Assembly (NCBI GenBank): GCA_001898935.1
Contig: MKVT01000034.1
Coordinates: 1 to 64,000 of the forward strand
Source: Paludibacter sp. 47-17
GTDB lineage: Bacteria > Bacteroidota > Bacteroidia > Bacteroidales > Paludibacteraceae
Direction: 5' to 3'
DNA: 64,000 nucleotides
The notes beneath the pieces are model-generated. The model worked only from the letters and a program-made list of their open reading frames with translations. It had not been told where the DNA came from and ran no database searches. The translations under genes were made by a program, and so were the position numbers. Positions 2,905-50,319 of the stretch are shown piece after piece. Numbering within the stretch: the first letter of the stretch is position 1; each line of letters opens with the position of its first letter.

Positions 2905-4579
2905 ACTGCACCGGTACCGTAAAATAAAAACACGATCCCTTACCGGGTTCCGATTCCACGCTGAGTCGGCCCCCCAATACCTCGGCCAGCTTCTTCGACA
3001 TCGACAACCCGATGCCCAGTCCGCCGTAATGTCGGTTGATACCATCGTCGAGTTGGCGGAAAAGGTCGAAGATATGCTGTTGCTGGTCGGCCGGAATACC
3101 GATGCCGGTATCGCTTACGTACATTTTCAGGCTGTCTCTGGTACGGGCGATGCCAAATTCGATAGTGCCGGAAGGGGTAAACTTAACTGCATTGTTGAAT
3201 AAGTTGGTAAGTACCTGCTGAATTTTTTGCCGGTCGGTGATTAAGGTGGTCGTCATCAGCGCATGATCGGGTTTGAAATGGAGCTTGATGAGTTCGTTTT
3301 TTCCCGAACTGTGCAACATCTCGGTTAACAGTTCTTTGCAAGCCATGTAGAGCTCTACGCCTTTCACCTGGGAGGTGCGTACGATCATCGCGCTTTTCTC
3401 GGCAAGAGCCAGTGCGAACATATCCTCGATCATTCCGAGCAGTCCATTCCCGCTCGTACATAAATCGGCCGCAAACTCCTTGATGTGTTTTTCGGATGAA
3501 TGATCGCGGATCAGCGCTCCGAATCCGAGAATATGGTTGAGCGGTGTACGCAGTTCATGACTGATGGTAGCCAGAAAAGCCGATTTTAACCGGTCGCTTT
3601 CGTTGGCATTTTCGAGCGCTTTAGCCAAGGCTTCCTCCGACCGGATGCGTTGCCGGGCCGATACCACCGTTTGTGCGAATATCTTCAATAATTGTTTTTC
3701 TTCCTCTCCAAATTGCTTGGTCGTACGCACAGCATCGATGCCCATAAAGCCCGTGTACTGTCCGTGGTCGATGAGCGGAACAAGGATCATGCTTTTTACA
3801 CCTTGCGCAAGCAGCATCGTTTTCAGTGCATCATTATCGCGCAAGGCTGCAACATCCTCCACGATATAAAAATCGATCCGGCGGTGTTCCATCATCCATC
3901 GGTCCATATCGGTAGGAGCAATTCCCTGCATCGATTTCATCAACGAATCGATACCCTCGTTGCACCACTCGTAAGTATTGTAAAACAGTCCCTCATCGGG
4001 CCGGTATTCGTAAATATAAAAACGGTCGGCACCCACAAATTCGCCTAAGTCGTGTACCGATTCCTTCAAGGTCTCATGTAGCCTGTCGGCAGGCAGATTG
4101 ATATAAGTGTTGGATATTTTTGTAAGTAATTCCTGCAACTGCGTTTGAAAGCGTAGTTTTTGATCTTTCACTTTCGATTCGGTAATATCGTGTATCAAAC
4201 CGGCATGCCGTATCAATTGATTCTGATCGTCGTACACGTGGAACGCCGAAGAAGAGATCCACCTGATTTCGCCATCGGGCCGTATAATACGGAATTCCTC
4301 GGTGAACTTACCGGTGTGGAGAAAAGAGTTGAATTTTTGGGCAATATACTCCCGGTCGTCGGGATGAATGATAGAATCCAGAGCTTCCTGGGGTGGTAAA
4401 TCGGTAAGTTGCTGTATTCCAAATAATTGTTTGTAATTTGGACTGATGTATAAGATTTCGTTTAAGTCGGCTGAAAGCAACCAGAATGTACCACCGATAT
4501 TATTTACTATCTGTCTGAAATTCAGGTTGTTTTCGAGCTCATTGTTGTGTGGCAAACTGGCTTGCGAGGTAGTTTCCAT
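2897..4579 (-). CDS. Soluble PAS-GAF sensor histidine kinase
   Basis: A 560-residue signalling kinase. In order: a PAS/PAC sensor domain (about 20-135), a GAF domain (about 150-305), a dimerisation/phosphoacceptor helix with the H-box SHELRTPLN (His341), and a HATPase domain with the N-box (NLFNNAVKF), G1 box (DTGIGIP) and G2 box (GLGIGLS). No membrane segment or signal peptide is present, so the signal is probably sensed in the cytoplasm. No receiver domain or response regulator lies next to it, so the partner is unknown. It is divergent from the carbonic anhydrase gene and convergent, with an 8-base overlap, with the pectate lyase gene. The ligand cannot be read from the sequence. Confidence 0.92.
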   Translation of the reverse strand: METTSQASLPHNNELENNLNFRQIVNNIGGTFWLLSADLNEILYISPNYKQLFGIQQLTDLPPQEALDSIIHPDDREYIAQKFNSFLHTGKFTEEFRIIRPDGEIRWISSSAFHVYDDQNQLIRHAGLIHDITESKVKDQKLRFQTQLQELLTKISNTYINLPADRLHETLKESVHDLGEFVGADRFYIYEYRPDEGLFYNTYEWCNEGIDSLMKSMQGIAPTDMDRWMMEHRRIDFYIVEDVAALRDNDALKTMLLAQGVKSMILVPLIDHGQYTGFMGIDAVRTTKQFGEEEKQLLKIFAQTVVSARQRIRSEEALAKALENANESDRLKSAFLATISHELRTPLNHILGFGALIRDHSSEKHIKEFAADLCTSGNGLLGMIEDMFALALAEKSAMIVRTSQVKGVELYMACKELLTEMLHSSGKNELIKLHFKPDHALMTTTLITDRQKIQQVLTNLFNNAVKFTPSGTIEFGIARTRDSLKMYVSDTGIGIPADQQQHIFDLFRQLDDGINRHYGGLGIGLSMSKKLAEVLGGRLSVESEPGKGSCFYFTVPVQFI

Positions 4580-7428: not shown

Positions 7429-9924
7429 ATGAAGAAACAATTTTTTACCGCTGCAGCCTTCGGGCTGAGTCTGCTGTGCACGACTGCACGGGCCGACAAC
7501 TGGACCAATACCGGTTCACGATGGGAGAAGAACATTACTCCTTCTGTATTTCAGTTTACAACGCGTACTACTGCCACGATGCAGGCCCTTATTTTTCCTG
7601 CGGCAGGTGGTGCTAACCCGAATCCGGCTATCACCACCACTACCCACGATTTGTCGGATGGTTATTTTGCAGTAACGGGCGGACAGATCGGAGCAGGCGA
7701 TATTACCGATCCTGCAAATGTGCGTCAGGCTTTTATGATCACCGGCGACACGGCAGTGAACGGCACCGGCTTATTACGTTTTGCACAAAGCACGGCCGGA
7801 GTAACCGATGGCTACAAAGCCGGTAAGTTTTTGGGCTACGTAAACCTCAACTGGTACGTACCTCAGCGTTATTCCGGTTATAAGATCAGCTTTAGTTCGC
7901 GGGTGTACAATACCGGCACTTTCGGCTTGCAATTATTGGTATATGATGCCTCTGGTACGCAACTCGGGACAACGCAAAGTTTAGCCGCCGGAGGTTGGAA
8001 TACCGCTTCCTTCACTCAAACCGGTAATCGTCCTTTCCGGTTTAAAATGAGTTTACCCAATACTACGGGACTGGTGGCTTATTACGAGACTCCCAAAATA
8101 CTCTTAGTGAGCGCTGCCGAGCCGGCCGTGCGCACTATCGCGGTAACTACTTCCGGCAATGGAACCGTTACAGCCGCTTACGCAACCCTGCGCGACCAGG
8201 ACACCCAGCAATTCACCATTACTCCCGGCGCCGGTGAAACGGTGGTACAGGCTTTATACAACGGCAGTCCGGTAACACTTACCGACATGGGTAACGGTAG
8301 TTTCAGCTATACCACACCCTTGCTGACCGCCAACGCCAGCTTTGCCGTGCATTTTACTCCGCAACATTTTACCGGAACCGGTAACTGGTCGGATGCAGCC
8401 CGCTGGAGTGGAGGTGTAGTACCCGGTGCCGCATCCAAGGCGATTATCGAGGGTAAGGCTACTGTAAGTACTGCAGTAGAAGCCGCGCAAATTCAGGTAA
8501 AGCCTACCGCACAACTAACCATTTCGGAAGGTAGCTCGCTGAGCGTGACGGGCGATCTGACCCTCGAAAGCAATGCTTCGCGTACCGCAACACTGGTTAA
8601 TTACGGTAGCCTCACGGTGGGTGGGTCGGCCGTGGCACAGCAATACCTCACCGTTGACCGGCAGTGGTGGTACCTGGCATCGCCGGTGGTGGGAGCTACC
8701 TCGTCGGCAGTGGTAGGCTCCAATAAAATAGGCGATTATACCGAAGCTACACGTAGTTATTCCGATGCATTCACAGGTGCTGTAACGCTTCAGGCCGGGA
8801 AAGGATATGTTGTAAAACTCGATGCCGAAGGAGTTACCGATGGTGTTTTCGCTTTTTCAGGAACCGGCTTCTTCGATGGAAACCTCGCCCTTACTCCTAC
8901 ACGCACCATCACCGGAACGGAAGGAGATGCCAAGCGTGGTTTCAATCTGGTTGGAAATCCGTATCCCTCGTACCTCAACTGGAATGCTGCCTATAATGAA
9001 GCTACCAACCTGCGTACCACCATCTGGTACCGTACACGTGGTGCGGAAGCGATGGAATTTGTTACCTATAATGCATTGCTGGGAGTTTCTGTTCCTGCCG
9101 GTATCAATGGTTATATTCCGCCGATGCAGGGATTTTGGGTGAAAGTAGATAACGATCCGGTGTTGCCTGCCACACAAACCACCGGCAGTATCACCTTTAC
9201 GAATGCCATGCGCGCTCATGCCGATGCCGAAGGCAATTCCACCGAAAACAGCCTGAAAGCACCAGCTGAAGGCTCCTTACAATTGGTTCGTTTGAAACTT
9301 ACCGCCGGCGGGCAGTCCGACGAAACCCTCATTGCCTTGCATCCCGCTGCCGAGAACGGATACGATGGGTTCGATTCCGATAAAATGACTAATCCGGCTT
9401 CGATACCGGCGCTTTATACCCTGGCTGAGGATAAACCGCTAGTTATCAATGCTATTTCGGAGAATGAGGCGATCGGTCACATACCGCTCGTAATACAGTT
9501 GCCTGCCGCGGAAACGGCCGGCCTGCGATGGACCGAGTCGACCTTTACAGCGCCTTTGCAGTTGTTCCTGCACGATAAGGTATTGAACCTGGAAACCGAG
9601 TTGCTACCCGGCGAAGAAGTTCAGATACCATCCGGTTTCACCAATAGTGCCGGTCGTTTCGTTCTCGAGCTCCGGGCTCCCGGAATTACCACCGGCTCAA
9701 CCACTACTTCGGGCGAACCGTTCAGCGTATGGGAAAGTGCAACAGGACAGTTAACGGTACGCACCCCATCTGTAGGCGCCACTCTTTATCTTCGGTCGCT
9801 TACCGGACAAGTAGTGCATGCCCAACCGGTGACCGCTTCGCCCGTCGTACTGGACCATCGGACCGAGTCAGGAGTTTATCTTCTCACCGTTGGGAATCGG
9901 ACCCGTAAAGTAGTCGTACGCTAA
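7429..9924 (+). CDS. Large secreted T9SS-sorted protein, first copy
   Basis: An 831-residue protein of unknown function. It has a signal peptide (about 1-22), a beta-rich N-terminal half unlike its neighbour, and a second half (from about residue 405) plainly paralogous to the protein at 10455-12632. Shared blocks include RQWWYLASP, GYVVK, KRGFNL-GNPYPSYLNW and MQ-FWVKV. A T9SS-type C-terminal domain (about 765-831; LYLRSLTGQVV, ESGVYLLTVGNRTRKVVVR) predicts export across the outer membrane and surface anchoring. No catalytic motif is recognised. It is followed after 25 bases by the small peptide gene at 9950 and then a terminator, so the two should be co-transcribed. The repeat of this layout at 10.4-12.9 kb ties the peptide to this family. 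Confidence 0.85.
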   Translation: MKKQFFTAAAFGLSLLCTTARADNWTNTGSRWEKNITPSVFQFTTRTTATMQALIFPAAGGANPNPAITTTTHDLSDGYFAVTGGQIGAGDITDPANVRQAFMITGDTAVNGTGLLRFAQSTAGVTDGYKAGKFLGYVNLNWYVPQRYSGYKISFSSRVYNTGTFGLQLLVYDASGTQLGTTQSLAAGGWNTASFTQTGNRPFRFKMSLPNTTGLVAYYETPKILLVSAAEPAVRTIAVTTSGNGTVTAAYATLRDQDTQQFTITPGAGETVVQALYNGSPVTLTDMGNGSFSYTTPLLTANASFAVHFTPQHFTGTGNWSDAARWSGGVVPGAASKAIIEGKATVSTAVEAAQIQVKPTAQLTISEGSSLSVTGDLTLESNASRTATLVNYGSLTVGGSAVAQQYLTVDRQWWYLASPVVGATSSAVVGSNKIGDYTEATRSYSDAFTGAVTLQAGKGYVVKLDAEGVTDGVFAFSGTGFFDGNLALTPTRTITGTEGDAKRGFNLVGNPYPSYLNWNAAYNEATNLRTTIWYRTRGAEAMEFVTYNALLGVSVPAGINGYIPPMQGFWVKVDNDPVLPATQTTGSITFTNAMRAHADAEGNSTENSLKAPAEGSLQLVRLKLTAGGQSDETLIALHPAAENGYDGFDSDKMTNPASIPALYTLAEDKPLVINAISENEAIGHIPLVIQLPAAETAGLRWTESTFTAPLQLFLHDKVLNLETELLPGEEVQIPSGFTNSAGRFVLELRAPGITTGSTTTSGEPFSVWESATGQLTVRTPSVGATLYLRSLTGQVVHAQPVTASPVVLDHRTESGVYLLTVGNRTRKVVVR

Positions 9925-9949: not shown

Positions 9950-10117
9950 ATGAAAACCAAACTTCCGTACAACAGTCCCGCAATTGAATGGATCCGACTC
10001 GACAGTACCATCGCGTTGCAATTGCAATCCGATGCCGATCCGATGGGAGAGCCCGATTGGGCGTCGCGTATCGTCGATACACCATCGACCGACCCCATGC
10101 AAACGTCGGTCGTGTAA
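9950..10117 (+). CDS. Small peptide, candidate RiPP-like precursor (copy 1)
   Basis: A 55-residue open frame with no cysteine and no signal peptide. Aligned with the peptide at 12649, residues 1-37 are 28/37 identical (MKTK, Tyr7, Pro10, IxE and IRLD positions), ending in an identical 15-residue block LQLQSDADPMGEPDW (23-37). The last 18 residues differ, apart from a shared DP(M/L)Q. A conserved front part with a variable tail is what a leader plus core looks like. It follows a T9SS protein by 25 bases, has its own terminator, and lies upstream of pqqD-like, kinase-like and peptidase-ABC genes. That it is a substrate of those genes is inference. The encoding DNA for the block matches the second copy at 42 of 43 bases. 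Confidence 0.75.
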   Translation: MKTKLPYNSPAIEWIRLDSTIALQLQSDADPMGEPDWASRIVDTPSTDPMQTSVV

Positions 10118-10141
10118 AATAACCATCACCCCGCTCTTCGC

Positions 10142-10176
10142 AAACTCCCGTTGCATACGACAATGGGAGTTTTTTT
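10142..10176 (+). terminator. Intrinsic terminator after peptide copy 1
   Basis: AAACTCCCGTTG (10142-10153) pairs with CAATGGGAGTTT (10161-10172) over a 7-base loop and runs into a T tract. The rest of the gap to 10454 shows no convincing gene; the frames there match nothing I recognise. Confidence 0.88.
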
Positions 10177-10409
10177 CTGTACTGAGGAAAACCGGTACCA
10201 TGCCGCTATAGGCGTGGGCCAACCTGATGACGGGAAAAAATAGCCGGCCGGTTATCGGTTGCAGTGCCAGGCGGTAGACCGACTGAAAGTTCAGAGCCTT
10301 TTCCGGCGAGCCTGCATGACCACCGGATAGATTCGTTAATGCAAACGTTTGAAAGTTAAATTGCTGTGATTTAGCAGATAAGGAGAACACTTTGAAAGGG
10401 AGTAAGTTA

Positions 10410-10417
10410 TATATTTG
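10410..10417 (+). promoter_or_regulatory. Bacteroidetes -7 promoter element
   Basis: TATATTTG matches TAnnTTTG and is 38 bases before the ATG at 10455. A TTTG at 10391-10394 is 15 bases upstream, slightly short for a -33 element. It gives the second protein-peptide unit its own promoter. Confidence 0.5.
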
Positions 10418-10454
10418 TTGCCGAAAAAAATATAAATCTAAAAAGAATACAAGT

Positions 10455-12632
10455 ATGAAAAAAATTACTTTGCTGTTGGCCTTACTACTCTTAATGGGTA
10501 CAGTATCTGCAAATGCTCAGTTTGTCGTGGCAGAAGATAATGCGGGAAACTATTCCACATGGGCTGATGCCGATAATCTGGGATTTGGTTTTGGTGAATG
10601 GGATTTGTGGAATAACGCATCTTCAGGTTGGTTTATCGGAAGTTCCTCAAGTGCCGGTTTTGGAAATATCGATTCAAATTCAAAATCTTTTGGGTTATGG
10701 GGAACCACTGGTTATGCAAATGCTCAGCGTTTGTTAAATGCTCATTGGGGCGATGGCGCTACTTTTACCATCGATTTAGCCACTGCCTACCGAAGTGGCG
10801 CCAGAGGTATAGATCTGTTTGCTTCCGGATTTGATCAGGTATGGAACTTTAACATAGGCTCAGATCAATATACTGCAGGTGGGGTAAATCAGTCGTGGGC
10901 CTATTCTCAGCAATCAATATTTAAACTTACCGTTGTTCAGGAGGGAGCAAATCTGCAAATATCGCTCACCCGAGGTACCGATACTTATTCCACAACGATC
11001 ACAGGAAAAACGTTATACGCATTTAAATTGTATTGTGGTGGAACAACTGGCGGCGATTTAAACAATCTTTTTTTCAATAATGTAAAAGTCAGCTATTCGG
11101 ACTGGAGTAAAGTGCCTTCCGATATTAAAGTAAAAGTAGCAGGAAATGCTGCACTTAATGCTGATAAAACCGTATCCGAACTTGAAATCGCCAGCGGAGA
11201 AACTACGCTCGAAGCCGGGAATCAACTTACTGTAGGTACATTAACCAACAATGGTATGCTGACGTTAAAAACGGGTGCTACTGTTTTAACCAGCTCTGTC
11301 GGAGGTTCGGGTACCACCTATGTGGAACAAACCCTTCCATCCGGCCGTCAGTGGTGGTATTTGGCAAGTCCGCTTTCGGGCGCTACCAGCAATGTAATTC
11401 GTCCGGATGGATCCGCCAATCTCATGACTCACTATGACGAAGCCACGTTCAATTATTCAACGGCTTATGCGGCCAATTCCGCCACTCCTTTAGTTGCAGG
11501 CAGGGGATATGTGGTTAAATTTTCGGATGCGAATGAACGTACGGTCGTTTTCACCGGAGGTTCGCTGAATAATGGTGAGGTCGCCCTTACACCTACCCGC
11601 ACGGGAACAACGGCCGGGAAGCGTGGGTTCAACCTGATCGGCAATCCTTATCCTTCGTATCTGAATTGGGATGCAGTGTATACCGATGCCACGAATCCTG
11701 CTGTGAATATGCGTAATGCTATCTGGTTCCGTACTATGGACGAAGTCATGAAATTCCATACCTATAGCGATGGTGAGGGTGTTCCTTCGTTGGATGCGAA
11801 TGATAATCCTTTAACCATTACCGGTCAGATTGCTCCCATGCAGGCTTTCTGGGTGAAGGTGCAGGCCGATCCGCTTGCTCCTGAAACGGTAAGCAACGGA
11901 TCGCTCACGTTTAAAAACACCCATCGTTCGCACCAGGCTGCAACCGGGTACAACCCGTTGAAAGCGAAAGCTGCCGAGCTTCGTCCCCGTGTGCGGCTCG
12001 TGATATCCAACGGGGTGGCCGATGATGAAATGCTTGTTGTAGGCAAGAGTTATGCGGCGAATGGCCTGGACAGTTACGATATCGAAAAAATGTCGAACGA
12101 CAATGCGGCTATTCCTGAATTGTTCTCGCTGGTGGAAAACCAGGAGCTGGTTATCAATTCGATGCAGGAGCTGAAAGCCGGTAAGTGGGTGATGCTCGGG
12201 ATGCGTCCCGGTGTGGCCGGAAATTTCGGTATTAAAGTTTCTCAACTCGAAAATATCGATGCGCAGGTGATGCTTATCGACCGGCTACTCAATACCGAAC
12301 AGGAACTGACGTTGGGCGAAACCTATTCGTTTACTTCCGACGGTACTGCTACCAACGACCGTTTCAGCCTCGAATTCCGTGCTCCGGGTACGATCACTTC
12401 GGTGGATGAGCTGGCAACCGAAGCGCATGTCTTTGTCAACGAAAACCGTCAGCTTATCGTGCAGGCGCCCGGCATTACGCGCAACGATCGTATAAGTGTA
12501 TATACCCTGGCCGGACAGCAATTGCAGTTACAACAGGCCGATGGAGCAGTGACGGTGCTTTCACGGCCTCTTGCTACCGGTGTTTACATTGTGAAAGTGA
12601 ATCAACTTGTCGAAAAAGTAATTGTTAAATAA
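10455..12632 (+). CDS. Large secreted T9SS-sorted protein, second copy
   Basis: A 725-residue paralogue of the protein at 7429-9924. The start at 10455 is chosen because the signal peptide (MKKITLLLALLLLMGTVSANA) begins there. The N-terminal part (about 22-225) differs from copy 1 and resembles a beta-sandwich rich in Trp, Ser and Gly. The second half shares RQWWYLASPLSGATSN, KRGFNLIGNPYPSYLNW and MQAFWVKVQ. A T9SS C-terminal domain closes the protein (ISVYTLAGQQL, GVYIVKV). Function is unknown; surface display is predicted. The 5' third of the gene looks more AT-rich than the rest. It is followed after 16 bases by the second peptide gene, which has a clear ribosome binding site. Confidence 0.85.
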   Translation: MKKITLLLALLLLMGTVSANAQFVVAEDNAGNYSTWADADNLGFGFGEWDLWNNASSGWFIGSSSSAGFGNIDSNSKSFGLWGTTGYANAQRLLNAHWGDGATFTIDLATAYRSGARGIDLFASGFDQVWNFNIGSDQYTAGGVNQSWAYSQQSIFKLTVVQEGANLQISLTRGTDTYSTTITGKTLYAFKLYCGGTTGGDLNNLFFNNVKVSYSDWSKVPSDIKVKVAGNAALNADKTVSELEIASGETTLEAGNQLTVGTLTNNGMLTLKTGATVLTSSVGGSGTTYVEQTLPSGRQWWYLASPLSGATSNVIRPDGSANLMTHYDEATFNYSTAYAANSATPLVAGRGYVVKFSDANERTVVFTGGSLNNGEVALTPTRTGTTAGKRGFNLIGNPYPSYLNWDAVYTDATNPAVNMRNAIWFRTMDEVMKFHTYSDGEGVPSLDANDNPLTITGQIAPMQAFWVKVQADPLAPETVSNGSLTFKNTHRSHQAATGYNPLKAKAAELRPRVRLVISNGVADDEMLVVGKSYAANGLDSYDIEKMSNDNAAIPELFSLVENQELVINSMQELKAGKWVMLGMRPGVAGNFGIKVSQLENIDAQVMLIDRLLNTEQELTLGETYSFTSDGTATNDRFSLEFRAPGTITSVDELATEAHVFVNENRQLIVQAPGITRNDRISVYTLAGQQLQLQQADGAVTVLSRPLATGVYIVKVNQLVEKVIVK

Positions 12633-12648
12633 ATAAAGAGATCAGGAA

Positions 12649-12813
12649 ATGAAAACAAAACAACAATACCTCCACCCCGAAATCGAGCTGATTCGTCTCG
12701 ACCATTCGATATCGCTCCAATTGCAATCCGATGCCGATCCGATGGGAGAACCCGATTGGGATGCCTGCAACGATTCGTTTACAAACGATCCCCTTCAGGA
12801 GTTTAAAGCCTGA
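12649..12813 (+). CDS. Small peptide, candidate RiPP-like precursor (copy 2)
   Basis: A 54-residue peptide read from ATG 12649, with AGGA four bases upstream. It shares the front part and the block LQLQSDADPMGEPDW (23-37) with the peptide at 9950. The tail after Trp37 (DACNDSFTNDPLQEFKA) is different and includes one cysteine. It is followed by a terminator and then the gene set MFS, PqqD-like, kinase-like and peptidase-ABC. A role as substrate is inferred from that context and from the conserved-leader/variable-tail pattern. An alternative is a short structural or chaperone-like partner of the T9SS protein before it. Confidence 0.78.
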   Translation: MKTKQQYLHPEIELIRLDHSISLQLQSDADPMGEPDWDACNDSFTNDPLQEFKA

Positions 12814-12831
12814 TGAATATATTCAGTTAAA

Positions 12832-12872
12832 AAGGTGCTGCCGGTTAGTTCTTCAGGCAGCATCTTTTTTTT
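12832..12872 (+). terminator. Intrinsic terminator after peptide copy 2
   Basis: GGTGCTGCC (12834-12842) pairs with GGCAGCATC (12856-12864, one G-T pair), followed by eight T and then a run of seven G. Confidence 0.88.
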
Positions 12873-12979
12873 GGGGGGGATAGCCGGTCTCCGGGAAGCG
12901 CAGCCGGAAAAATACGGGTCCACGTTGTAAATAATTCATCTGTCGGCAGAAGAGTGTATGTCTTTTGCAATTTTTTCAG

Positions 12980-12987
12980 TAAATTTG
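12980..12987 (+). promoter_or_regulatory. Bacteroidetes -7 promoter element for the MFS-pqqD-kinase-ABC operon
   Basis: TAAATTTG matches TAnnTTTG, 28 bases before ATG 13016. The next four genes follow at gaps of 18 and 20 bases and a 14-base overlap, so this may drive them all. Confidence 0.55.
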
Positions 12988-13015
12988 CGCTTTGATAATT
13001 TTTTAAAATTAAAGT

Positions 13016-14422
13016 ATGACAACTACCCTGGAACGAACGCTCCGTGATTCGAAAGTTGCACGGTGGACGGCCCTGATAATGCTGGCCAGCACCATGTTTT
13101 TTGCTTATATGTTTATCGATGTGCTGGCACCGCTGAGCACGCTCCTCGAAAGTCAGCTCAAATGGTCGCCCGATACCTTTGGATCGGTGGCCGGTTCGGA
13201 GTATTTTCTGAATGTTTTTGCTTTCTTTCTGATTTTCGCCGGGATCATTCTCGACAAAATGGGGGTTCGGTTTACCGCCCTGTTGTCGGGAGTCGTGATG
13301 GTAGTGGGGGCTTCGATCAAATTATACGGGGTTAGCGATGTGTTCAATAATGGCGGACTTGGTTACGAGTTTTTGAACTCGTTCTGGCCTGCCTTTCCTG
13401 CTTCGGCAAAAATGGCCTCCATCGGTTTTGCTATCTTTGGATGTGGGGTGGAAATGGCTGGAGTTACAGTTTCGAAAGGCATCGTTAAGTGGTTTAAGGG
13501 AAAAGAGTTAGCGCTTGCAATGGGACTCGAAATGGCCATAGCCCGGTTGGGGGTGTTTGCCGTATTCCGTCTGTCGCCCATCCTGGCAGCCGGTGGTATG
13601 ATTTCGAAATCGGTCGGTGTGGGTACGCTGTTGTTGCTGATCGGCTTACTTACCTTCACCGTGTATTTTTTCATGGATCGTAAGCTCGAGCAACAGGACG
13701 AATCGGCACGGGATGCCGGAGCCGACCCCGAAGAAGAGTTCAAAATCAGCGACCTGAAAGCGATCTTTACTTCGAAAACGTTTTTGATTGTTGCCGGACT
13801 GTGCGTGTTGTTTTATTCGGCTATCTTCCCGTTTCAGAAATTTGCAACCGGTATGCTCGAAAGTCGTCTCAGCATGTCCACTTCCGAAGCCAGCAGCCTG
13901 TTTTCGTATTTCCCCATTGGCGCCATGGTGCTCACTCCCTTGTTGGGCTGGTTTATCGATAATAAGGGAAAAGCGGCTACCATGCTGATGCTGGGTTCGC
14001 TGCTGGTAGTAATTTGTCATCTCATTTTTGCTCTGGTTCCGGCTGCAAGTTTCACCTTTGGCGTGGCATTGGGCGCTATCATTCTCCTCGGTGTATCGTT
14101 TTCGTTGGTTCCGGCTGCTTTGTGGCCTTCGGTACCGAAATTGGTCGACAACCGCGTACTGGGGTCGGCGTATTCCATTATTTTCTGGATTCAGAACATC
14201 GGTTTATTGTTGACTCCGATATTCATTGGCTGGGCCCTGAAAACCTCCAACCCGGGCGTAGCCGAACAAATTGCGGCCGGCGAAGCGGTAAAGTATGTGT
14301 ATACCGTGCCGATGCTTATTTTTGCCAGCCTGGGAGTTATCGCGCTTTTACTTGCATTCTGGCTCAAAGCCGAAGATAAGAAAAAGGGCTATGGCCTGGA
14401 GCTGCCCAACGTAAAAAAATAA
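13016..14422 (+). CDS. Major facilitator superfamily transporter
   Basis: A 468-residue inner-membrane protein with about twelve hydrophobic segments. Family features include the early charged loop LDKMGVRF and a cytoplasmic mid-loop (about 222-245) rich in Glu and Asp between the two halves. The substrate cannot be told; it resembles organic-anion or sugar-phosphate MFS proteins in general layout only. Its stop is 18 bases before the pqqD-like gene with no terminator between, so it probably shares a transcript with the peptide-processing genes. It may nevertheless be an unrelated metabolic transporter. Confidence 0.85.
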   Translation: MTTTLERTLRDSKVARWTALIMLASTMFFAYMFIDVLAPLSTLLESQLKWSPDTFGSVAGSEYFLNVFAFFLIFAGIILDKMGVRFTALLSGVVMVVGASIKLYGVSDVFNNGGLGYEFLNSFWPAFPASAKMASIGFAIFGCGVEMAGVTVSKGIVKWFKGKELALAMGLEMAIARLGVFAVFRLSPILAAGGMISKSVGVGTLLLLIGLLTFTVYFFMDRKLEQQDESARDAGADPEEEFKISDLKAIFTSKTFLIVAGLCVLFYSAIFPFQKFATGMLESRLSMSTSEASSLFSYFPIGAMVLTPLLGWFIDNKGKAATMLMLGSLLVVICHLIFALVPAASFTFGVALGAIILLGVSFSLVPAALWPSVPKLVDNRVLGSAYSIIFWIQNIGLLLTPIFIGWALKTSNPGVAEQIAAGEAVKYVYTVPMLIFASLGVIALLLAFWLKAEDKKKGYGLELPNVKK

Positions 14423-14440
14423 CCTGTTAACTTATAAAAA

Positions 14441-14716
14441 ATGAATTCGTATTATAACCTGAAATCTAAATTTGTTGCCCGCGATGTAGGGGGCGAGCTG
14501 GTTGTGGTGCCGCTTACCGGCAACATTGCTCATATGAACGAATTGTTTACTTTCAATGCTTCGGCAAAATTACTTTGGGAAGCATTGCAGGAAGACTCGA
14601 CGGAAGAGACGCTCGTAAAGGCCTTACTCGATGCGTATGAGGTGGAGGAACCGGTAGCCCGGGCCGATGTGAAAAAATTTCTGGAAAGGCTGGAGCAAAT
14701 GGGCCGTAAATATTAA
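14441..14716 (+). CDS. PqqD-family small protein (candidate RiPP recognition element)
   Basis: A 91-residue protein of the PqqD type: short N-terminal beta strands (YNLKSKFVARDVGGELVVVPL), the family-typical FNASAKLLWEAL stretch where most members have a hydrophobic-N-x-x-x-x-x-hydrophobic-W pattern, and a C-terminal winged-helix part (LLDAYEVEEPVARADVKKFLERL). PqqD domains bind the leader of ribosomally made, modified peptides and present it to enzymes. It lies 18 bases after the MFS gene and 20 before the kinase-like gene. The likely partner peptides are at 9950 and 12649, which is inference. No radical-SAM enzyme or lasso cyclase gene is next to it. Confidence 0.85.
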   Translation: MNSYYNLKSKFVARDVGGELVVVPLTGNIAHMNELFTFNASAKLLWEALQEDSTEETLVKALLDAYEVEEPVARADVKKFLERLEQMGRKY

Positions 14717-14736
14717 CCTGTATATCCTACCCAGGT

Positions 14737-15636
14737 ATGAAGGAAACTGTTTTCAAGGTTGCCGAATGTGCGATTTTGGTTCGTTCCGAACACGATTTTG
14801 AGCTGGAAGAAGGCTATTTACCCTTTGTAGTTGAAGCCGGAAGCGAGCTGGAAACCGATTCCCCGCCCGAAGTTGTAATTAATGTGGTACCCCTGCTTCC
14901 CGAGGGTTTAATCTCCGGCAGGCAGCTGCTATTCGATGCCGAAAACGAACAGCAAAAATTCTATTCCATCTATCAGATGGAGGATGGACTCGGATTTGTC
15001 ATTTACGATCAGCAAACCCGTAACGATGTTCAACAAGTGGCTTTGTTGAACAAGGATTTTACCAACTGGACGGTTTATTTTGATACGAAGAGGGCGGATT
15101 TGTTTCCGTTGAAATACCCGTTCGGACCTATAATGCTTCATTATCTGACACTTAAAATTGATGCGGTAATGATGCATGCTTCATGTGCTTTCGACGGAAA
15201 AAAGGGCCGCCTGTTTTCCGGATTTTCGGGGGTAGGCAAGAGCACCATCTCGAAACTCTGGGCGCAGGAAGGAAGTCGTATTATCAACGACGACCGGTTG
15301 ATCGTGCGTAGGCATAACGGCGGATACAGGGTGTACAACACGCCTATGTACTATCAGGATATTCCCAAGGTGGCACCGTTGGGAGGAATTTTTCTCATCA
15401 GGCATTTTCCTGAAAATACGATGTGCCGTATAAAGGGAGCTGGCGCTGTATCGAAAGTAATGGCGTACAGTATTCAGAATAATTTCGACCGGCGCTACGT
15501 TGCTCAGCGACTGGCCTTTTTCAGTGAATTGGTTTCTCAGATACCCGTTTTCGAATTGGGTTTTGTACCCGATGTGTCGGTGGTACGCTACATACTCGAA
15601 CACGAGGATAAGCAGGAAGCAGGTGAAACAAGGTAA
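14737..15636 (+). CDS. HPr kinase-like protein of a peptide maturation cluster
   Basis: A 299-residue protein whose C-terminal half resembles the HprK kinase domain. It has the P-loop GFSGVGKST (162-170), the acidic NDDRL motif just after it, and a conserved region up to NTPMYYQD. The N-terminal ~130 residues are not the classical HprK N-domain. Such kinase-like proteins sit beside PqqD domains in other peptide clusters, and in some lasso clusters they phosphorylate the precursor. Here it sits between the pqqD-like gene and the peptidase-ABC gene, overlapping the latter by 14 bases, so translation is probably coupled. No HPr or PTS gene is nearby, which argues against a role in sugar control. 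The substrate is unknown. Confidence 0.8.
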   Translation: MKETVFKVAECAILVRSEHDFELEEGYLPFVVEAGSELETDSPPEVVINVVPLLPEGLISGRQLLFDAENEQQKFYSIYQMEDGLGFVIYDQQTRNDVQQVALLNKDFTNWTVYFDTKRADLFPLKYPFGPIMLHYLTLKIDAVMMHASCAFDGKKGRLFSGFSGVGKSTISKLWAQEGSRIINDDRLIVRRHNGGYRVYNTPMYYQDIPKVAPLGGIFLIRHFPENTMCRIKGAGAVSKVMAYSIQNNFDRRYVAQRLAFFSELVSQIPVFELGFVPDVSVVRYILEHEDKQEAGETR

Positions 15637-17890
15637 ACTACATAACGATCTCAGGGAAGTCATCGGAGTTTTGCTGGAGGATGACCGGCAGCTGGAATTC
15701 CGTATGAAGGGGTATAGTATGTTTCCGATGTTGCGCCCGGGCGATACCGGTATGGTGGAGAAATGTACGATCGACGAACTCCGTCCGGGTCATATAGTGG
15801 TGTTCTATCAGCGATCGAACCTGGTGGCTCACCGGTACATTCGCAGGGTTGATGACCGGATCGTTTGTAAAGGGGATAAAAATCTGTATGCCGATGAACC
15901 GGTGAAGCGCGAAGCGATTGTCGGTAAGCTGATTCGGTACAAGCGGGGTGACAAGGTATATACTACCGGCGATAAACACCCTGCAGCCTGGTTGGCCCTG
16001 CGATTACCCCGTGTTTTTGGAGCATTCAATTCGTTTCAGGCTCAGCAACATTCGCGTTGGGAATCGCTGAAAAAATACAGGACCGATTTCCGGGCCAATT
16101 TCCGGCTCGCCTCCGAACCGGCGGGCCGGCTGTTCACCTTGAACGTCCTTATTGCCATTTTACAGGGTTTAATCCCGTTTGCGGTTATAGTATTGGTGAA
16201 ATGGTTGGTGGATTTACTCCATTCCTTACCTGGAAAGGGATCATTGCCCCCGCAATTTATGGTTTTACTCGTGCTCACCGGTGCTGCATTTTTACTTACC
16301 TCGGTACTGAACGAACTAAAGAGCCTTTACGGCGAGAAACTCTCGCAGCGGGTTACCCGGTCGATGTACGGCCATCTGCACCGTAAACACATAGCATTGG
16401 AGCTTTCGCAATACGAAAATCCCACCGCATTGGATAAAATGCACCGGGCCGTGCAGGAAGCGTCGTTTCGTCCGGTAAAATTACTGAACGAAGTACAATA
16501 CCTGCTGAAATCAATTGCAGCATCGCTGTTTCTGATGGGGATCTTTATCAGTATCAGGTGGTACCTGGTGTTGATATTGCTGCTGGCCATTGCTCCGGGT
16601 GTTGTTTTAAAGATCCGGTTTGCCCGGCACTATCACCGTTTGAAGGAAAAACAAAGTCCGTTGGAACGTAAGATGTTCTATTTCAATCGAGTACTTACAG
16701 GTTTTTCTTTTGCAAAAGAAATGAAGCTGTTTGGCTTCGCTGGCTATTTCCTGAAGCGGTTCAGGGCCTTACAGGATAATATTTTTCACGATAAGTTGAA
16801 ATTACGCCGCAAAGAAGTGATACAAAACCTGTCGGCACAGACCTTTGCCGTGATGCTGATTTTTGCCACCCTGGCATTTGTTGCCTTTCAAACACTCTCC
16901 GGATTGTTCACGATAGGTACGGTTGTACTGTTTTTCTTTGCTTTTCAACGTGGCTATTCCGTATTGAACGATTTGTTCCGTTCGATGGCCAGCTTATTGG
17001 AAGACACGATCTTTATGAACGACTTCAGGCATTTTCTGGAAGGAGAACGGGTAGAGGAGAGTACTGCGGCCCCAGAGGCAATGCCTGAAACGAGATCTTC
17101 AGCCGGTACCTTCAACCGGCCGGCGTTTACACTCGACCACTCCATACGGGTAGCGAACCTAAGCTTCAGGTATGAGCATAGCGGACGCGATGCATTGCGC
17201 GGCGTCAACCTGACTATTCGAAAGGGAGAAACGGTGGCTATAGTCGGAGCCAACGGTTCGGGAAAGACAACCCTGATAAAGCTCTTGTGCGGCTTTTATA
17301 TGCCCGGTTCCGGTAAAATATACTATGATTCGGCTACCACCGAGGAATTGGGCCGTGAACAGATCTGTAACCATCTGTCGGCTGTTTTTCAGGATTTTGC
17401 ACTGTATAATGTAACAGCCAACGAAAACATCGCCTTGGGTGCCATCCGGCAGGCGTTTTCGGAACAAAAAGCAAAACATGCGGCCGGTATGGCTGGCATT
17501 GCCGAAGTATTGGAACAATTGCCCGAAGGTTACAATACCTTACTGGGTAACCAGTTTCTGGGAGGTGAAGAATTAAGTATCGGACAGTGGCAGAAACTGG
17601 CTATCGCCCGTGCGTTTTATCGCGATCGCGAGCTCCTGCTGATGGATGAGCCATCGAGCGCACTGGATGCCGTTTCGGAACAACAGATTATTGAAACCCT
17701 GCAGAAGCTGGCCCATCAGAAAACAGCCGTCATCATCAGTCACCGTCTGAGTACCGTAAGGTGGGCCGACCGCATTGTGGTGTTCGACGAAGGTTGTGTG
17801 GTAGAAGAAGGAACTCACGACCAACTGATGCAACAAAATGGCACTTATGCCCATCTGTACCGGCAGGCAACACGATCGTATGCAGATTAA
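15623..17890 (+). CDS. S26-type serine peptidase domain fused to an ABC exporter
   Basis: A 755-residue protein. Residues about 15-115 resemble S26 signal peptidases: Ser32 in GYSMFPMLRPGD, His70 in VAHRYIRR and Asp85 in CKGDKN. This looks like the Ser-His-Asp arrangement of the ER/SipW type, not the Ser-Lys type. A membrane domain follows (about 170-440), then an ABC ATPase with Walker A GANGSGKT (about 541-548), signature LSIGQWQ, Walker B LLLMDEPSSALD and the switch His in ISHRLST. The layout copies peptidase-containing bacteriocin exporters, which carry a C39 cysteine peptidase instead. The GTG at 15623 is preferred: AGGAAG lies just upstream and the peptidase domain begins soon after. 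The frame is open back to 15500, but that part lies inside the kinase gene. Likely role: leader removal and export of the small peptides. Confidence 0.85.
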   Translation: MKQGKLHNDLREVIGVLLEDDRQLEFRMKGYSMFPMLRPGDTGMVEKCTIDELRPGHIVVFYQRSNLVAHRYIRRVDDRIVCKGDKNLYADEPVKREAIVGKLIRYKRGDKVYTTGDKHPAAWLALRLPRVFGAFNSFQAQQHSRWESLKKYRTDFRANFRLASEPAGRLFTLNVLIAILQGLIPFAVIVLVKWLVDLLHSLPGKGSLPPQFMVLLVLTGAAFLLTSVLNELKSLYGEKLSQRVTRSMYGHLHRKHIALELSQYENPTALDKMHRAVQEASFRPVKLLNEVQYLLKSIAASLFLMGIFISIRWYLVLILLLAIAPGVVLKIRFARHYHRLKEKQSPLERKMFYFNRVLTGFSFAKEMKLFGFAGYFLKRFRALQDNIFHDKLKLRRKEVIQNLSAQTFAVMLIFATLAFVAFQTLSGLFTIGTVVLFFFAFQRGYSVLNDLFRSMASLLEDTIFMNDFRHFLEGERVEESTAAPEAMPETRSSAGTFNRPAFTLDHSIRVANLSFRYEHSGRDALRGVNLTIRKGETVAIVGANGSGKTTLIKLLCGFYMPGSGKIYYDSATTEELGREQICNHLSAVFQDFALYNVTANENIALGAIRQAFSEQKAKHAAGMAGIAEVLEQLPEGYNTLLGNQFLGGEELSIGQWQKLAIARAFYRDRELLLMDEPSSALDAVSEQQIIETLQKLAHQKTAVIISHRLSTVRWADRIVVFDEGCVVEEGTHDQLMQQNGTYAHLYRQATRSYAD

Positions 17891-19955: not shown

Positions 19956-22900
19956 ATGGAAAACCTTAAGTTGTTATCTTTCAGACTCACAGTTTGTGTT
20001 GTTTTTTTATTGAACACAGTATTTCTTTTTTCCGATCCTGTTATTACCAACGGCATATTAATCTCCTGGGACGATGCACCCGAGCATGTTATTATTCCAT
20101 CCGAAGTGGTGACCATCGCCGAAAATGCATTTAAAGGAAACTCCACGCTTCGCTTTTTGGAAGTAACTAATGCGGTAAAGGAAATAAAAGATAAAGCCTT
20201 TATCGACTGTGTAAACCTGGATTCGGTGTATTTCAACTTTGATTCAAACTTTTATACCCTTGCTCCTCCCAAAGTATCCTGTAACGCCTTTATAAATTGT
20301 AAGAAATTGAACACGGTGTTTATCGATTACAGTTTTTACAGGTCGGGACAAGATGGCTATTCACCTTTTCCTTACCTTACCGATTTGAAGTTTGGTAAAA
20401 ACCTCAAAACGATAGAATCTGCCCTTTTCAATAAATGCTATCAGCTTAAACATATAGTATTACCCGATAATATTGAAATTATTGGTAACAATAGCTTTTC
20501 CAATTGTATTCAACTCGATTCCATTGTGATGCCGGGAGTAAAAATCCTTCATGATGGCTGTTTCGAAAATTGTACTGCATTACGCACCATTACATTTCCC
20601 GAAAGATTAAGCACTTTAGGCAGATGGGTTTTCAAAGGATGTACTCAGTTACAAGAGATAAAGTTCAACGAAGGTTTGACAGTAATTTCGGAGGAATTGT
20701 TCAAGAATTGTTCATCGATTGTATATGTTGAGTTACCTCACGGTTTAAACACAATCGGACCCTATAGTTTTGAAAATTGTACCAGTCTTCGCTCGGTAAA
20801 GTGGAGTCCCTGCCTTGAAATTATTGATCGTGGTGCATTCAGAAGTTGTGATAAACTTGAAATTCCCGACTTTCCCGTTACACTTAAAAAAATTGGTGAC
20901 CATGCATTTGAAAAATTAATAAAACCTTCCGGGAACCTTTTCATTCCTGATAGTGTCACGGAAATTGGTAAGTATGCATTTTTCAGATGTACATCACTGA
21001 AGCAGGTAATAATCGGAACATCCGAAGGTGAAGGTTCTACAATAATGCTGGATGAATCTCCATTTCTTGGATGTGACAGCTTAACCAGGATCATAGTCAA
21101 CAAACCGTATACAAACATAAGAAGAGCATTTTATGGATTGAAAAACCTGAAAAATATTTATTTTGCTGAAAATAGTTTGACCATATCTCCGTCAATGTTT
21201 GAAAATTGTGGTCAACTTTCCACTGTCAATATTCCGGATTCGGTAAATTCGATTGGGAGCTATGCGTTTAAAAATTGTACAAGTTTACCTGTAATTCATA
21301 TTCCCGGGACCGTAAAAGTAATTGACGAAGGTGCATTTCAAAACTGTAGCTCCATTGTTTCTATCAATTTACCATCAGAGTTAAGGGAGATTACTCAATC
21401 GGCCTTTCAGGGTTGCAGCAGTCTCAGAGAGATAACTATTCCACCCTATGTGCAACTCATCTCAACCTATGCATTTCAGGGATGTACAGCGCTTCAAAAA
21501 ATCACTCTACCCTCACTGGTGGATATAATTGCATCGAAAGCATTCGGTAGCTGTTTAAATCTACAGGAAATCTATTGTTCAACAAAGCGTGTTCCCATAA
21601 CAGCATTAAATTGTTTCGATAGTGTTCCGGCCATCAGTTGTAAGATTTATGTACCCTCACCAAGTATAACAAGTTATAAGCAAGCAGAAGGCTGGCAACA
21701 ATTCGGCCTTGTTGAGGGCTTTCATTTTGATATCGATACAACCCTGATCATTCCGGATGAACCCCTGTACACCGATTTGAATTTTCCTGAACCTGTAATT
21801 CATGTTACGACGGTGGCTGGAGAATTGAGTGGTCAAATTAAAAATAGCTATTATGATTCTGTTGTAAAGTTGAAAGTAAGTGGAACAATGGATGCTAAAG
21901 ACTTTAGCTTTATTCGAAATTATCTGGAAAATTTGGTGTATCTTGATTTAAGTGAAGTAAGCATTCTGGCACATGACTCACCCAATTATGGAGTAAACGC
22001 GGCAAATGCTATTCCTAAAGAAGCTTTTAAGTATTCCAGGCTTAATATCATCGTTTTCCCTCCCTCAATCCTTACAATTGGTGAGTCAGCATTTTCAGGC
22101 TGTCAGAGTTTAAGGCAGCCATTAAAAATACCCTCTACGGTTAAAACAATCGAAAAGGGTGCTTTCTTTGCTTGCCAGAACCTAAAAGGTGTACTTACTT
22201 TACCAGAAAACGTTGAAACGATAGGGGAAAGTGCATTTCGAGCTTGCGGGGGCATCACACGTTTGGTTTTCAAATCATCCTTAAAAGCGATTCCTGCCAG
22301 AGCGTTTGAAAAGTGTACTCATCTTATGATAGTTGAATTGCCTTCCGGTGTGCAGCAAATTGGTGACAATGCTTTCGGATTTTGCCCATTACTCTTTAGG
22401 GTTAGTATGCCTTCGGTTCGAAGTATAGGGAATTACACCTTTGAAAATGCTGAGTTATTAAATCCGGTTATACTTCCGTCAACGTTAACTTCTATTGGTG
22501 AATATGCCTTTTCGGGCTGTAAGTCGATAACTGAAATTGTTTTTCCCGGATTAATTACCCAATTGAACAATTTTACGCTTAAAAACTGTATTGCACTTGA
22601 AAAAGTTACGCTTCCAGCTTCATTAACCAGGCTGGGCTATGGAGTATTTACTAATTGTACACTTATAAAGTCCTTTTATTGTTTGGCTGGAACTCCTCCC
22701 GGATCAACAATCGATTTTGCACAGTTTAACCAACTAAATCTGGAATTGTGCACCTTATATGTACCATGGGGGACCTCAGATCAATACAAATCGGCTCCTG
22801 TATGGAACGTGTTTAAAAATGTAGAGGAATTGGTGAAAGTTGCTAATGAATCATTGTTGGTTCCATCGGTGAATATCTTCCCGAATCCGGCAAAAGATTA

Positions 22901-23081
22901 TATTGTTGTTTCCGGAATTGATGAAGCAACCCTTTTAAAAATATTTTCGCTGGGCGGTGTAGAACTTTATTGTAAACTGGTTTCTCCTAACGAGATGGTA
23001 TCGATCGAGTGGCTCGAAAGCGGTACGTATTTGGTTCAACTTGGAAATCGTGATAGCCGTAAAATGAGTATTGTACGGTAA
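19956..23081 (+). CDS. BspA-type leucine-rich-repeat surface protein with T9SS signal
   Basis: A 1041-residue secreted protein: signal peptide (about 1-26), then more than twenty tandem ~23-residue repeats of the BspA/Treponema LRR type, with a core like AF-x2-C-x2-L-x2-I-x2-P-x2-V-x2-I. A spacer (about 590-665) separates two repeat arrays. The end (about 965-1041: NIFPNPAKDYIVVSG, SGTYLVQLGNRDSRKMSIVR) is a typical T9SS sorting domain. BspA-like proteins in oral Bacteroidetes and Treponema bind host or bacterial surfaces; here adhesion is inferred. The gene looks clearly more AT-rich than its neighbours, which suggests recent acquisition or different codon choice. Confidence 0.92.
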   Translation: MENLKLLSFRLTVCVVFLLNTVFLFSDPVITNGILISWDDAPEHVIIPSEVVTIAENAFKGNSTLRFLEVTNAVKEIKDKAFIDCVNLDSVYFNFDSNFYTLAPPKVSCNAFINCKKLNTVFIDYSFYRSGQDGYSPFPYLTDLKFGKNLKTIESALFNKCYQLKHIVLPDNIEIIGNNSFSNCIQLDSIVMPGVKILHDGCFENCTALRTITFPERLSTLGRWVFKGCTQLQEIKFNEGLTVISEELFKNCSSIVYVELPHGLNTIGPYSFENCTSLRSVKWSPCLEIIDRGAFRSCDKLEIPDFPVTLKKIGDHAFEKLIKPSGNLFIPDSVTEIGKYAFFRCTSLKQVIIGTSEGEGSTIMLDESPFLGCDSLTRIIVNKPYTNIRRAFYGLKNLKNIYFAENSLTISPSMFENCGQLSTVNIPDSVNSIGSYAFKNCTSLPVIHIPGTVKVIDEGAFQNCSSIVSINLPSELREITQSAFQGCSSLREITIPPYVQLISTYAFQGCTALQKITLPSLVDIIASKAFGSCLNLQEIYCSTKRVPITALNCFDSVPAISCKIYVPSPSITSYKQAEGWQQFGLVEGFHFDIDTTLIIPDEPLYTDLNFPEPVIHVTTVAGELSGQIKNSYYDSVVKLKVSGTMDAKDFSFIRNYLENLVYLDLSEVSILAHDSPNYGVNAANAIPKEAFKYSRLNIIVFPPSILTIGESAFSGCQSLRQPLKIPSTVKTIEKGAFFACQNLKGVLTLPENVETIGESAFRACGGITRLVFKSSLKAIPARAFEKCTHLMIVELPSGVQQIGDNAFGFCPLLFRVSMPSVRSIGNYTFENAELLNPVILPSTLTSIGEYAFSGCKSITEIVFPGLITQLNNFTLKNCIALEKVTLPASLTRLGYGVFTNCTLIKSFYCLAGTPPGSTIDFAQFNQLNLELCTLYVPWGTSDQYKSAPVWNVFKNVEELVKVANESLLVPSVNIFPNPAKDYIVVSGIDEATLLKIFSLGGVELYCKLVSPNEMVSIEWLESGTYLVQLGNRDSRKMSIVR

Positions 23082-50163: not shown

Positions 50164-50185
50164 CGCGTCGTTTTTTTGGTGTATG

Positions 50186-50193
50186 CAAATATA
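50186..50193 (-). promoter_or_regulatory. Bacteroidetes -7 promoter element for the arabinanase gene
   Basis: The minus strand reads TATATTTG, matching TAnnTTTG, 22 bases before the ATG at 50163. Confidence 0.5.
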
Positions 50194-50215
50194 GCCACTC
50201 TCGTTCATGCGGCAA

Positions 50216-50244
50216 GTGGACAATCGTTGAACTATGGTGGATAA
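50216..50244. promoter_or_regulatory. Possible operator of the hybrid regulator
   Basis: GTGGACAA (50216-50223) and GTGGATAA (50237-50244) are direct repeats 21 bases apart, two helical turns, between the divergent promoters. AraC-type regulators often bind such spaced repeats. This is a weak, single-site observation. Confidence 0.25.
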
Positions 50245-50296
50245 ATGCAGATAATTAGATCGAACTGCTTTTCAATTCAAATCGATTCATTACTTT

Positions 50297-50304
50297 TACT
50301 TTTG
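50297..50304 (+). promoter_or_regulatory. Bacteroidetes -7 promoter element for the hybrid regulator
   Basis: TACTTTTG matches TAnnTTTG, 15 bases before ATG 50320, giving a very short leader. Confidence 0.45.
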
Positions 50305-50319
50305 AATAATCTGAAATGC

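Follow-up and report, generated by a model that had tools for sequence, protein, structure and literature searches.

We analysed a 64,000-nucleotide stretch of DNA from Paludibacter sp. 47-17 (Bacteroidota, Bacteroidales, Paludibacteraceae; contig MKVT01000034.1, positions 1 to 64,000), called the window below; it lies at an end of its 250-kb contig, in a 4.18-Mb genome of 39 contigs. Between positions 7429 and 17890 it holds, in order on the + strand, a gene for a type IX secretion system (T9SS) cargo protein, the gene of a tiny peptide (peptide 1), a second T9SS cargo gene, the gene of peptide 2, a major facilitator superfamily (MFS) transporter gene, pqqD, hprK, and a gene fusing a signal peptidase (SpI) domain to an ATP-binding cassette (ABC) exporter. 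The probable task of this small Bacteroidota gene set is to recognise tiny peptides, phosphorylate and trim them and send them out of the cell, and the position of the tiny-peptide genes behind surface-protein genes hints at the role of their products.

7429–9924, + strand: T9SS-sorted surface protein 1 (cargo), 831 aa, partner of peptide 1; TIGR04183 22.6 bits, just below the cut-off of 23
8623–9219, + strand: cargo beta-domain of surface protein 1 (WWYLASP, GNPYPSYLNW, GFWVKV); 53% identity with the domain at 11307–11936
9950–10117, + strand: precursor-like peptide 1, 55 aa, YxxP leader motif, Ser27 codon at 10028–10030
10142–10172, + strand: terminator-like hairpin 3' of peptide 1; 12-pair stem and T run
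10455–12632, + strand: T9SS-sorted surface protein 2 (cargo), 725 aa, partner of peptide 2; TIGR04183 28.7 bits, above the cut-off of 23
11307–11936, + strand: cargo beta-domain of surface protein 2; modelled, predicted local distance difference test score (pLDDT) 87
12649–12813, + strand: precursor-like peptide 2, 54 aa, YxxP leader motif, Ser27 codon at 12727–12729
13016–14422, + strand: MFS transporter; PF07690, E 1.8e-34
14441–14716, + strand: PqqD-type recognition element (RRE) for ribosomally synthesised and post-translationally modified peptides (RiPPs); PF05402, E 3.8e-15
14737–15636, + strand: predicted HprK-like P-loop kinase; PF01293, E 1.4e-5, and PF07475, E 5e-4, both below curated cut-offs
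15623–15970 (end approximate), + strand: SpI domain (archaeal/SipW-type signal peptidase, S26), triad S32-H70-D85; TIGR02228, E 6e-12
15971–17890, + strand: MsbA-like ABC exporter part of the SpI-ABC protein; TIGR02203, E 1.9e-83, and PF00005, E 6e-30

Gene content of the locus

Each peptide gene starts 16–25 bp downstream of a T9SS surface-protein gene, and the SpI-ABC fusion, read from a GTG start at 15623, runs to 17890 and encodes 755 aa. A preliminary description of this DNA, made from the sequence alone, had recognised two short genes with a conserved front and a variable tail, a PqqD-type domain gene, an HprK-like P-loop protein and a peptidase-ABC exporter, and our annotation bears out all four: the peptides are related along their first part, PF05402 covers 14441–14716, the kinase combines weak Pfam matches with a model resembling PEPCK and HPr kinase (described below), and an S26-type domain is fused to an MsbA-like exporter. 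The same description had placed peptides and maturation genes in one tight order, which holds for pqqD, hprK and SpI-ABC (a 20-bp gap between pqqD and hprK, a 14-bp overlap between hprK and SpI-ABC) but is confined to these three; the description had overlooked the two T9SS genes and the MFS gene.

The MFS gene stands between peptide 2 and pqqD. Because its product is 94% identical in the nearest relative found (L083), against 77% for HprK there, we rejected it as a member of the system and regard it, on this sequence comparison, as a probable bystander; in the other loci whose genes were listed one after another it was not noticed by eye, no aimed search for it having been made. The hairpin behind peptide 1 is weak evidence of a terminator, because a promoter/terminator scan gave counts no higher than those in shuffled sequence (13 versus 13.8 for hairpins).

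The peptides and their distribution

Peptides 1 and 2 are 59% identical, with approximately the first 37 residues conserved, followed by a tail that varies in length and sequence and in which N-D-P-F/L is frequent close to the end. The genome encodes seven peptides of this family, five of them outside the window; six were retrieved by a search with peptide 2 and the seventh by a wider profile. Across 39 diverse peptides, Y7, P10, D18 and P31 (peptide 2 numbering) are invariant, Ser occupies position 27 in 36 of them and Thr in the other three, and the spacing between Y7 and S27 is free of gaps in every case, so that the leader presents a YxxPx[IVL] motif, a conserved Ile and a fixed Ser/Thr, Ser27 lying six residues past that Ile. 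Comparison with one relative over 31 codons showed 14 synonymous and six non-synonymous codon differences, and together with the fixed Y7–S27 spacing this argues for conservation beyond chance. Both window peptides lack a Pfam or NCBIfam match at E ≤ 0.1, and tblastn of peptide 2 against plasmids returned no match. In a protein collection, 128 proteins match the family at E ≤ 0.001; the 120 that were listed have no Pfam domain and carry only the name 'hypothetical protein'.

The distribution of the peptide follows that of the kinase. Among 393 genomes of the order, at cut-offs of E ≤ 1e-5 for the peptide and E ≤ 1e-30 for HprK, 27 contain both, five only the peptide, four only HprK and 357 neither, giving totals of 32 and 31 genomes, respectively (Fisher p 1.5e-32); inclusion of three genomes with weaker peptide matches (G372, G446 and G015), none of which has HprK, changes these counts to 27/8/4/354. 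The genomes with both fall into 17 GTDB families, and occurrence is patchy, with two genomes of the window's own genus lacking peptide and HprK alike. Among 120 genomes of the family, a close HprK type (E ≤ 5e-74) is present in 11 and the peptide in ten, nine having both (Fisher p 5e-11), when the search uses a profile built from six own-genome peptides only (A1); the match in the tenth peptide genome (G113) is weak and contains an internal stop. In 40 genomes of the order no HprK match is better than a distant one (E 1e-10 to 3e-29), and the peptide was found in none of them. The thresholds in these comparisons were chosen after inspection of the tables.

Gene neighbourhoods point in the same direction. 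The peptide lies at most about 2.1 kb from hprK in 16 of the 27 genomes having both. A kinase scan of named genomes, from which the best 80 of 120 loci were kept, many of them terminating at contig ends, showed PqqD in 77 loci, an ABC gene in 49, SpI in 63 (fused to ABC in 28, separate in 35) and the peptide in 41 (first profile, E ≤ 1) or 40 (wider profile, E ≤ 0.01). In ten of the 80 the peptide gene sits between pqqD and hprK, and L161 may be an eleventh such locus, with a peptide match at E 0.09. Labilibacter sediminis CG51 (L155) has pqqD, peptide, hprK, S26 and ABC genes consecutively, the peptide there not being behind a cargo gene. Most kinase loci are labelled Bacteroidota (Paludibacter, Bacteroidales, Flavobacteriales, Crocinitomicaceae, Marinilabilia); some from metagenome-assembled genomes (MAGs) are labelled, by title only, as Chlorobiota, Alphaproteobacteria (L111), a methanogen (L140) or Omnitrophota (L161).

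These genomic data make the peptide a strong substrate candidate for the pqqD/hprK/SpI-ABC set. The proposal in the preliminary description that peptides, PqqD, HprK-like protein and SpI-ABC form one leader-guided, RiPP-like pathway is supported by the 27 genomes with both genes against nine with a single one, and by the ten loci with the peptide inside the operon; the same counts answer the question of whether peptide and kinase genes occur independently in other genomes, and do not refute the proposal. We had also considered that the peptides are unrelated to the maturation genes, four of the first six own-genome peptides being encoded elsewhere behind T9SS genes, a view that was overturned by the family and order searches.

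Surface proteins encoded ahead of the peptides

Immediately upstream of each of the seven own-genome peptides is a gene encoding a large protein, and a TIGR04183 sorting-domain place lies beside six of the peptides (E ≤ 0.001), two just below the curated cut-off; the copy on contig C6 is not in the table. To describe upstream genes more broadly, 102 distinct peptides were traced to 92 references, one of them repeated, giving 91 distinct genes; ten peptides were left out because no same-strand open reading frame (ORF) of at least 90 aa lies within 400 bp upstream, six of these being within 290 bp of a contig end. TIGR04183 is present in 70 of the 91 (E ≤ 0.01), the remainder being PqqD (13), SipW-like peptidase (one), TsaD (one) and others (six).

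The partner proteins have in common a domain of about 200 residues with WWYLASP, GNPYPS and FWVKV motifs. It was detected in 61 of 73 upstream genes tested, a count that excludes 18 upstream genes that are pqqD, S26, TsaD or unknown, and four of the 12 negatives are pieces of 95–239 aa. Within the genome, this cargo domain occurs at nine places, compared with 130 for the T9SS sorting domain, and seven of the nine genes precede the seven peptides. Since the cargo-domain profile was built from the own genome, it favours relatives; with it, strong matches (E ≤ 1e-20) were found at 35 places in nine of the 120 family genomes, eight with HprK and peptides and one (G023) with neither, and a listed peptide is directly downstream, by coordinates, of 24 of the 35. 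Weaker matches occur in 27 other family genomes, three of them with HprK, so the cargo domain, taken over its full range, is not confined to this system.

No Pfam match covers the cargo domain in either window protein, and surface protein 1 as a whole has none at E ≤ 0.1. The model of the domain from surface protein 2 is mainly beta (pLDDT 87), a fold search with it gave no PDB match at E ≤ 0.001, and we regard the domain as an undescribed family. The pairing of peptide and T9SS protein is the most distinctive feature of the system, and it had been overlooked in the preliminary description.

A Fluviicola MAG (L154) encodes two identical peptides (833–994 and 3494–3655), each 26 bp behind a cargo-domain gene. 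On contig C9 of the window's genome, a cargo-domain T9SS protein of 1670 aa (L007:9601-14613) lies between two cargo–peptide pairs, with no peptide gene seen behind it. The window also contains, at 19956–23081, a gene for a BspA-type leucine-rich repeat protein of 1041 aa, behind which no family peptide was found and whose T9SS sorting domain scored 20.5 bits in one scan and 25.8 in another (cut-off 23). An apparent arabinan/xylan locus at 48403–61761 comprises GH43, a hybrid two-component regulator, an arabinofuranosidase and two LamG/carbohydrate-binding module proteins, the first of which has a T9SS sorting-domain match below the cut-off.

Recognition, kinase and export proteins

The nearest described counterparts of the maturation proteins come from the linear polyphosphorylated peptides (LPPs), RiPPs of Bacillota encoded by lppAKBSDN (PMC13381572, May 2026; drawn on here and below in excerpt). 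In a Paenibacillus LPP, the RRE LppB binds YxxP through D70 and N33 (PMC13381572). N39 and D76 of our PqqD protein are invariant in nine of nine aligned copies and align to residues 51 and 88 of PDB chain 9x8z_B, both offset by 18 from LppB N33 and D70; because this offset is constant, we infer that 9x8z chain B is LppB. Chain 9x90_B has Gly at the position of the PqqD Asn, matching the paeninodin RREs as PMC13381572 describes them.

The AlphaFold model of the HprK-like protein (pLDDT 92) has PEPCK and HPr kinase as its best PDB matches, and a PDB sequence search with it gave only weak HprK and PEPCK matches. The window SpI domain scores 45.7 bits to TIGR02228 (cut-off 51.85), compared with 68.8 bits for that of L077, and the Ser-His-Asp triad is present in 64 of 64 SpI domains aligned. 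The exporter part scores 280.9 bits to TIGR02203, far below the MsbA equivalog cut-off of 602. Judged by eye, the first hydrophobic stretch of the fusion protein comes after the SpI domain.

Elsewhere in the genome, a single gene exceeds the cut-off for the nucleotidyltransferase family PF14907, with a short partial match beside it. This gene (L225:8190-9392; G000:C9:34.2-35.4 kb) is far from pqqD/hprK, among neighbours that by eye look like polysaccharide synthesis genes. It is a candidate trans-acting partner that, by analogy, could glycosylate the phosphopeptides; glycosylation of a phosphopeptide has reportedly been seen for pseudomycoidin. PF14907 was confirmed in five of five loci (L113, L123, L128, L138 and L154) where a likely nucleotidyltransferase ORF near hprK had been chosen by eye, and in L154 it stands directly behind hprK. 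A second PqqD gene above the cut-off (L227:8994-11621; G000:C18) is followed by one for an ATP-grasp-like protein, by eye (347 aa), and one for a 451-aa protein whose N terminus opens with a YxxPxL leader-like stretch, MEKKRYERPTLRKM; PqqD may guide a further system here, one whose leader is part of a large protein.

A candidate pathway

For phosphorylation, the cleavage site, the direction of export and the action on the cargo, we infer the following scheme. The PqqD-type RRE would bind the YxxPx[IVL] leader motif of the short precursors, as suggested by homology and the conserved contact residues. The HprK-like kinase would then phosphorylate the near-invariant Ser27 behind the leader, as LppK, which is HprK-like, adds up to four phosphates to core Ser3 (PMC13381572). 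By analogy with LppS (an SpI protein with S29/H68/D93), whose cut leaves this Ser as the third core residue and which in vitro needs LppB (PMC13381572), the SpI domain would remove the leader close to or just before Ser27 on the cytoplasmic side, where it should face because no membrane segment is seen before it by eye. The ABC part may export the core to the periplasm, as peptidase-ABC exporters do, and a single maturation operon would serve several precursors encoded elsewhere in the genome. The mature phosphopeptide would most probably serve its co-encoded T9SS protein, either by being bound or attached to it or by acting as an anchor or a glycan-accepting element; this step, the weakest of the scheme, is suggested by the co-encoding of each own-genome precursor with a beta-domain T9SS protein.

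Our preferred reading is thus an LPP-like pathway in which Ser27 would be phosphorylated and the peptide cleaved, exported and put to the service of the co-encoded surface protein; to this reading we give a probability of roughly 0.66. A more specific version, in which each modified peptide would be the matched, possibly covalent, partner of one beta-domain T9SS protein and one kinase–RRE–peptidase–exporter set would equip the whole family, is tentative, and we place it somewhat below an even chance. To our knowledge, a role as partner of a surface protein is known nowhere else for post-translationally modified peptides; if true, a surface-dedicated phosphopeptide pathway would be the first function for the LPP kind.

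Several observations weigh against the preferred reading. The upstream gene is pqqD and not a cargo gene in 13 of the 91 cases, so the cargo linkage is not universal; two of the nine own-genome cargo-domain genes have no peptide, and for 11 of the 35 strong domain places in the family none is listed directly downstream. No peptide match was found in two of the 11 HprK genomes of the family (G072 and G089), the order contains the peptide-only genomes (five, or eight including weak matches) and the four HprK-only genomes counted above, and the Fisher p-values ignore shared ancestry. The RRE profile scores 24.7 bits to 9x8z_B versus 30.7 to 9x90_B and 29.7 to TbiB1, so that the likeness to the presumed LppB is not special and no stronger than that to lasso RREs; LPP RREs are taken to form a monophyletic clade in Bacillota, a phylum other than that of the window. 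The HQ and FET parts of the LPP motif are absent here, and Pfam and NCBIfam scans found no NTP transferase in the window cluster.

An LPP-like pathway could also yield a free secreted signal or antimicrobial, with the T9SS genes being just convenient co-regulated neighbours. The 13 pqqD genes upstream of peptides, with those peptides within a pqqD–hprK operon, agree with this view, as does the patchy distribution (31 of 393 genomes, E ≤ 1e-30), which is typical of conflict systems, as PMC13381572 argues for LPPs. We nevertheless consider it unlikely, as the pairing is tied to a single domain family, present in 61 of the 73 upstream genes tested, which is rarer in the own genome than T9SS genes generally (nine versus 130 places).

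Less probable still is that the peptides are unmodified accessory factors for T9SS cargo, with HprK and PqqD acting elsewhere. Most peptides of Paludibacter genomes are indeed encoded far from pqqD/hprK, but the genome-level co-occurrence of peptide and HprK, the peptides inside the pqqD–hprK operon in Marinilabiliales-type loci, and the joint presence of the YxxP motif and the RRE contact residues all speak for modification. It is, in our estimate, a little harder still to ascribe the co-occurrence mostly to shared ancestry and profile bias: the counts are uncorrected for phylogeny and profile A4 includes peptides from loci found by HprK, yet profile A1, with own-genome peptides only, gave the same result in the family, both genes are present in 17 families while two same-genus genomes lack both, and the peptide is found in none of the 40 genomes with a distant HprK match only. 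A degenerate lasso-peptide cluster after cyclase loss is very improbable, since the use of PqqD and HprK by paeninodin-like lasso peptides and the below-cut-off matches of NCBIfam lasso PqqD models are set against a genome without B2 peptidase and a gene set that recurs with no obvious cyclase or B2 in loci read by eye, where no model search was made.

Relation to known systems

Paeninodin-like lasso peptide clusters likewise combine an RRE with an HprK kinase that phosphorylates Ser, at times with a hexose-adding nucleotidyltransferase (PMC8498205, in excerpt). Unlike them, the present locus shows no macrolactam cyclase, the genome has no B2 cysteine peptidase (PF13471, no matches at E ≤ 1) and the leader carries YxxP instead of WxxP. 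A lasso peptide cluster was ruled out on the absence of B2 from the genome and of a cyclase among the scanned neighbours. The earlier statement that the set lacks a lasso cyclase, radical-SAM or lanthionine enzyme agrees with the Pfam matches of the ten proteins scanned, among which no such family occurs, the rest of the genome not having been searched for a cyclase.

An HPr-rel-A system (TIGR04352/TIGR04353) was ruled out by scores of 16 bits for the kinase model (cut-off 200) and 19.6 bits for the PqqD model (cut-off 35), both below the NCBIfam cut-offs. Family relatives also contain a recurrent cluster (L080, L081 and L082) of HprK-like kinase, stand-alone S24/S26-like peptidase, PqqD and NTP_transf_5-like genes, with no family peptide seen nearby. 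These clusters resemble ours in having a kinase homologue, PqqD, an S26-type peptidase and a PF14907 nucleotidyltransferase (Pfam-tested in L080), but differ in a distant kinase (24–35% identity over the aligned part) and in the stand-alone peptidase; that such clusters, as read in these three loci, are the same system was ruled out by the absence of the peptide from all 40 genomes of the order with a distant kinase match only.

Peptidase-containing ABC transporters carry a C39 leader peptidase fused ahead of the ABC exporter and cut at a double-glycine site. The SpI-ABC protein likewise has a leader peptidase ahead of the exporter, but it is an S26-type Ser-His-Asp peptidase instead of a C39 cysteine peptidase, and there is no double-glycine site here.

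The open-licence literature yielded no paper that links PqqD to type IX secretion, no paper combining any pair of HprK-related kinase, HPr-rel-A and PqqD, and no occurrence of the string GNPYPS; by titles and abstract starts, none was judged on topic for RiPPs and type IX secretion.

The closest comparison is with the LPPs. Both have a discrete RRE, an HprK-like kinase, a SipW-like SpI peptidase with a Ser-His-Asp triad, an MsbA-like exporter and no cyclase, and both have a YxxPx[V/I] leader followed by Ile and Ser and a variable tail, the LPP precursor motif being YxxPxVLxHQxIxFETxxS (PMC13381572), which the present peptides match in part. The view that the system is undescribed is therefore not supported, because Bacillota LPPs share its enzymes and, in part, its leader motif, and neither is the view that it belongs to no familiar class. 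The pathway likely works like that of LPPs, even though the RRE similarity is not special and parts of the motif differ. The differences are that the phylum here is Bacteroidota and not Bacillota; that SpI and the exporter make up a single protein, both here and in 28 of 63 loci with SpI; that the NTP transferase is outside the operon, whereas in LPPs it is in the core cluster; that Ser lies six residues after the conserved Ile instead of seven; and that the precursors are scattered and paired with T9SS cargo.

The authors of PMC13381572 hold both LPPs and paeninodins to be restricted to Bacillota and describe the biological role of either as unknown, and the string 'bacteroid' does not occur in the main text of that paper. 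What is new here is a Bacteroidota branch, the SpI–exporter fusion, the dispersal of precursors in one genome and the pairing with T9SS cargo. If true, the Bacteroidota branch would contradict the Bacillota limit stated in that paper, and the cargo domain and YxxP peptide together provide markers for precursors far from their maturation genes, which gene-cluster mining would miss, the T9SS pairing being a concrete and testable clue to peptide function.

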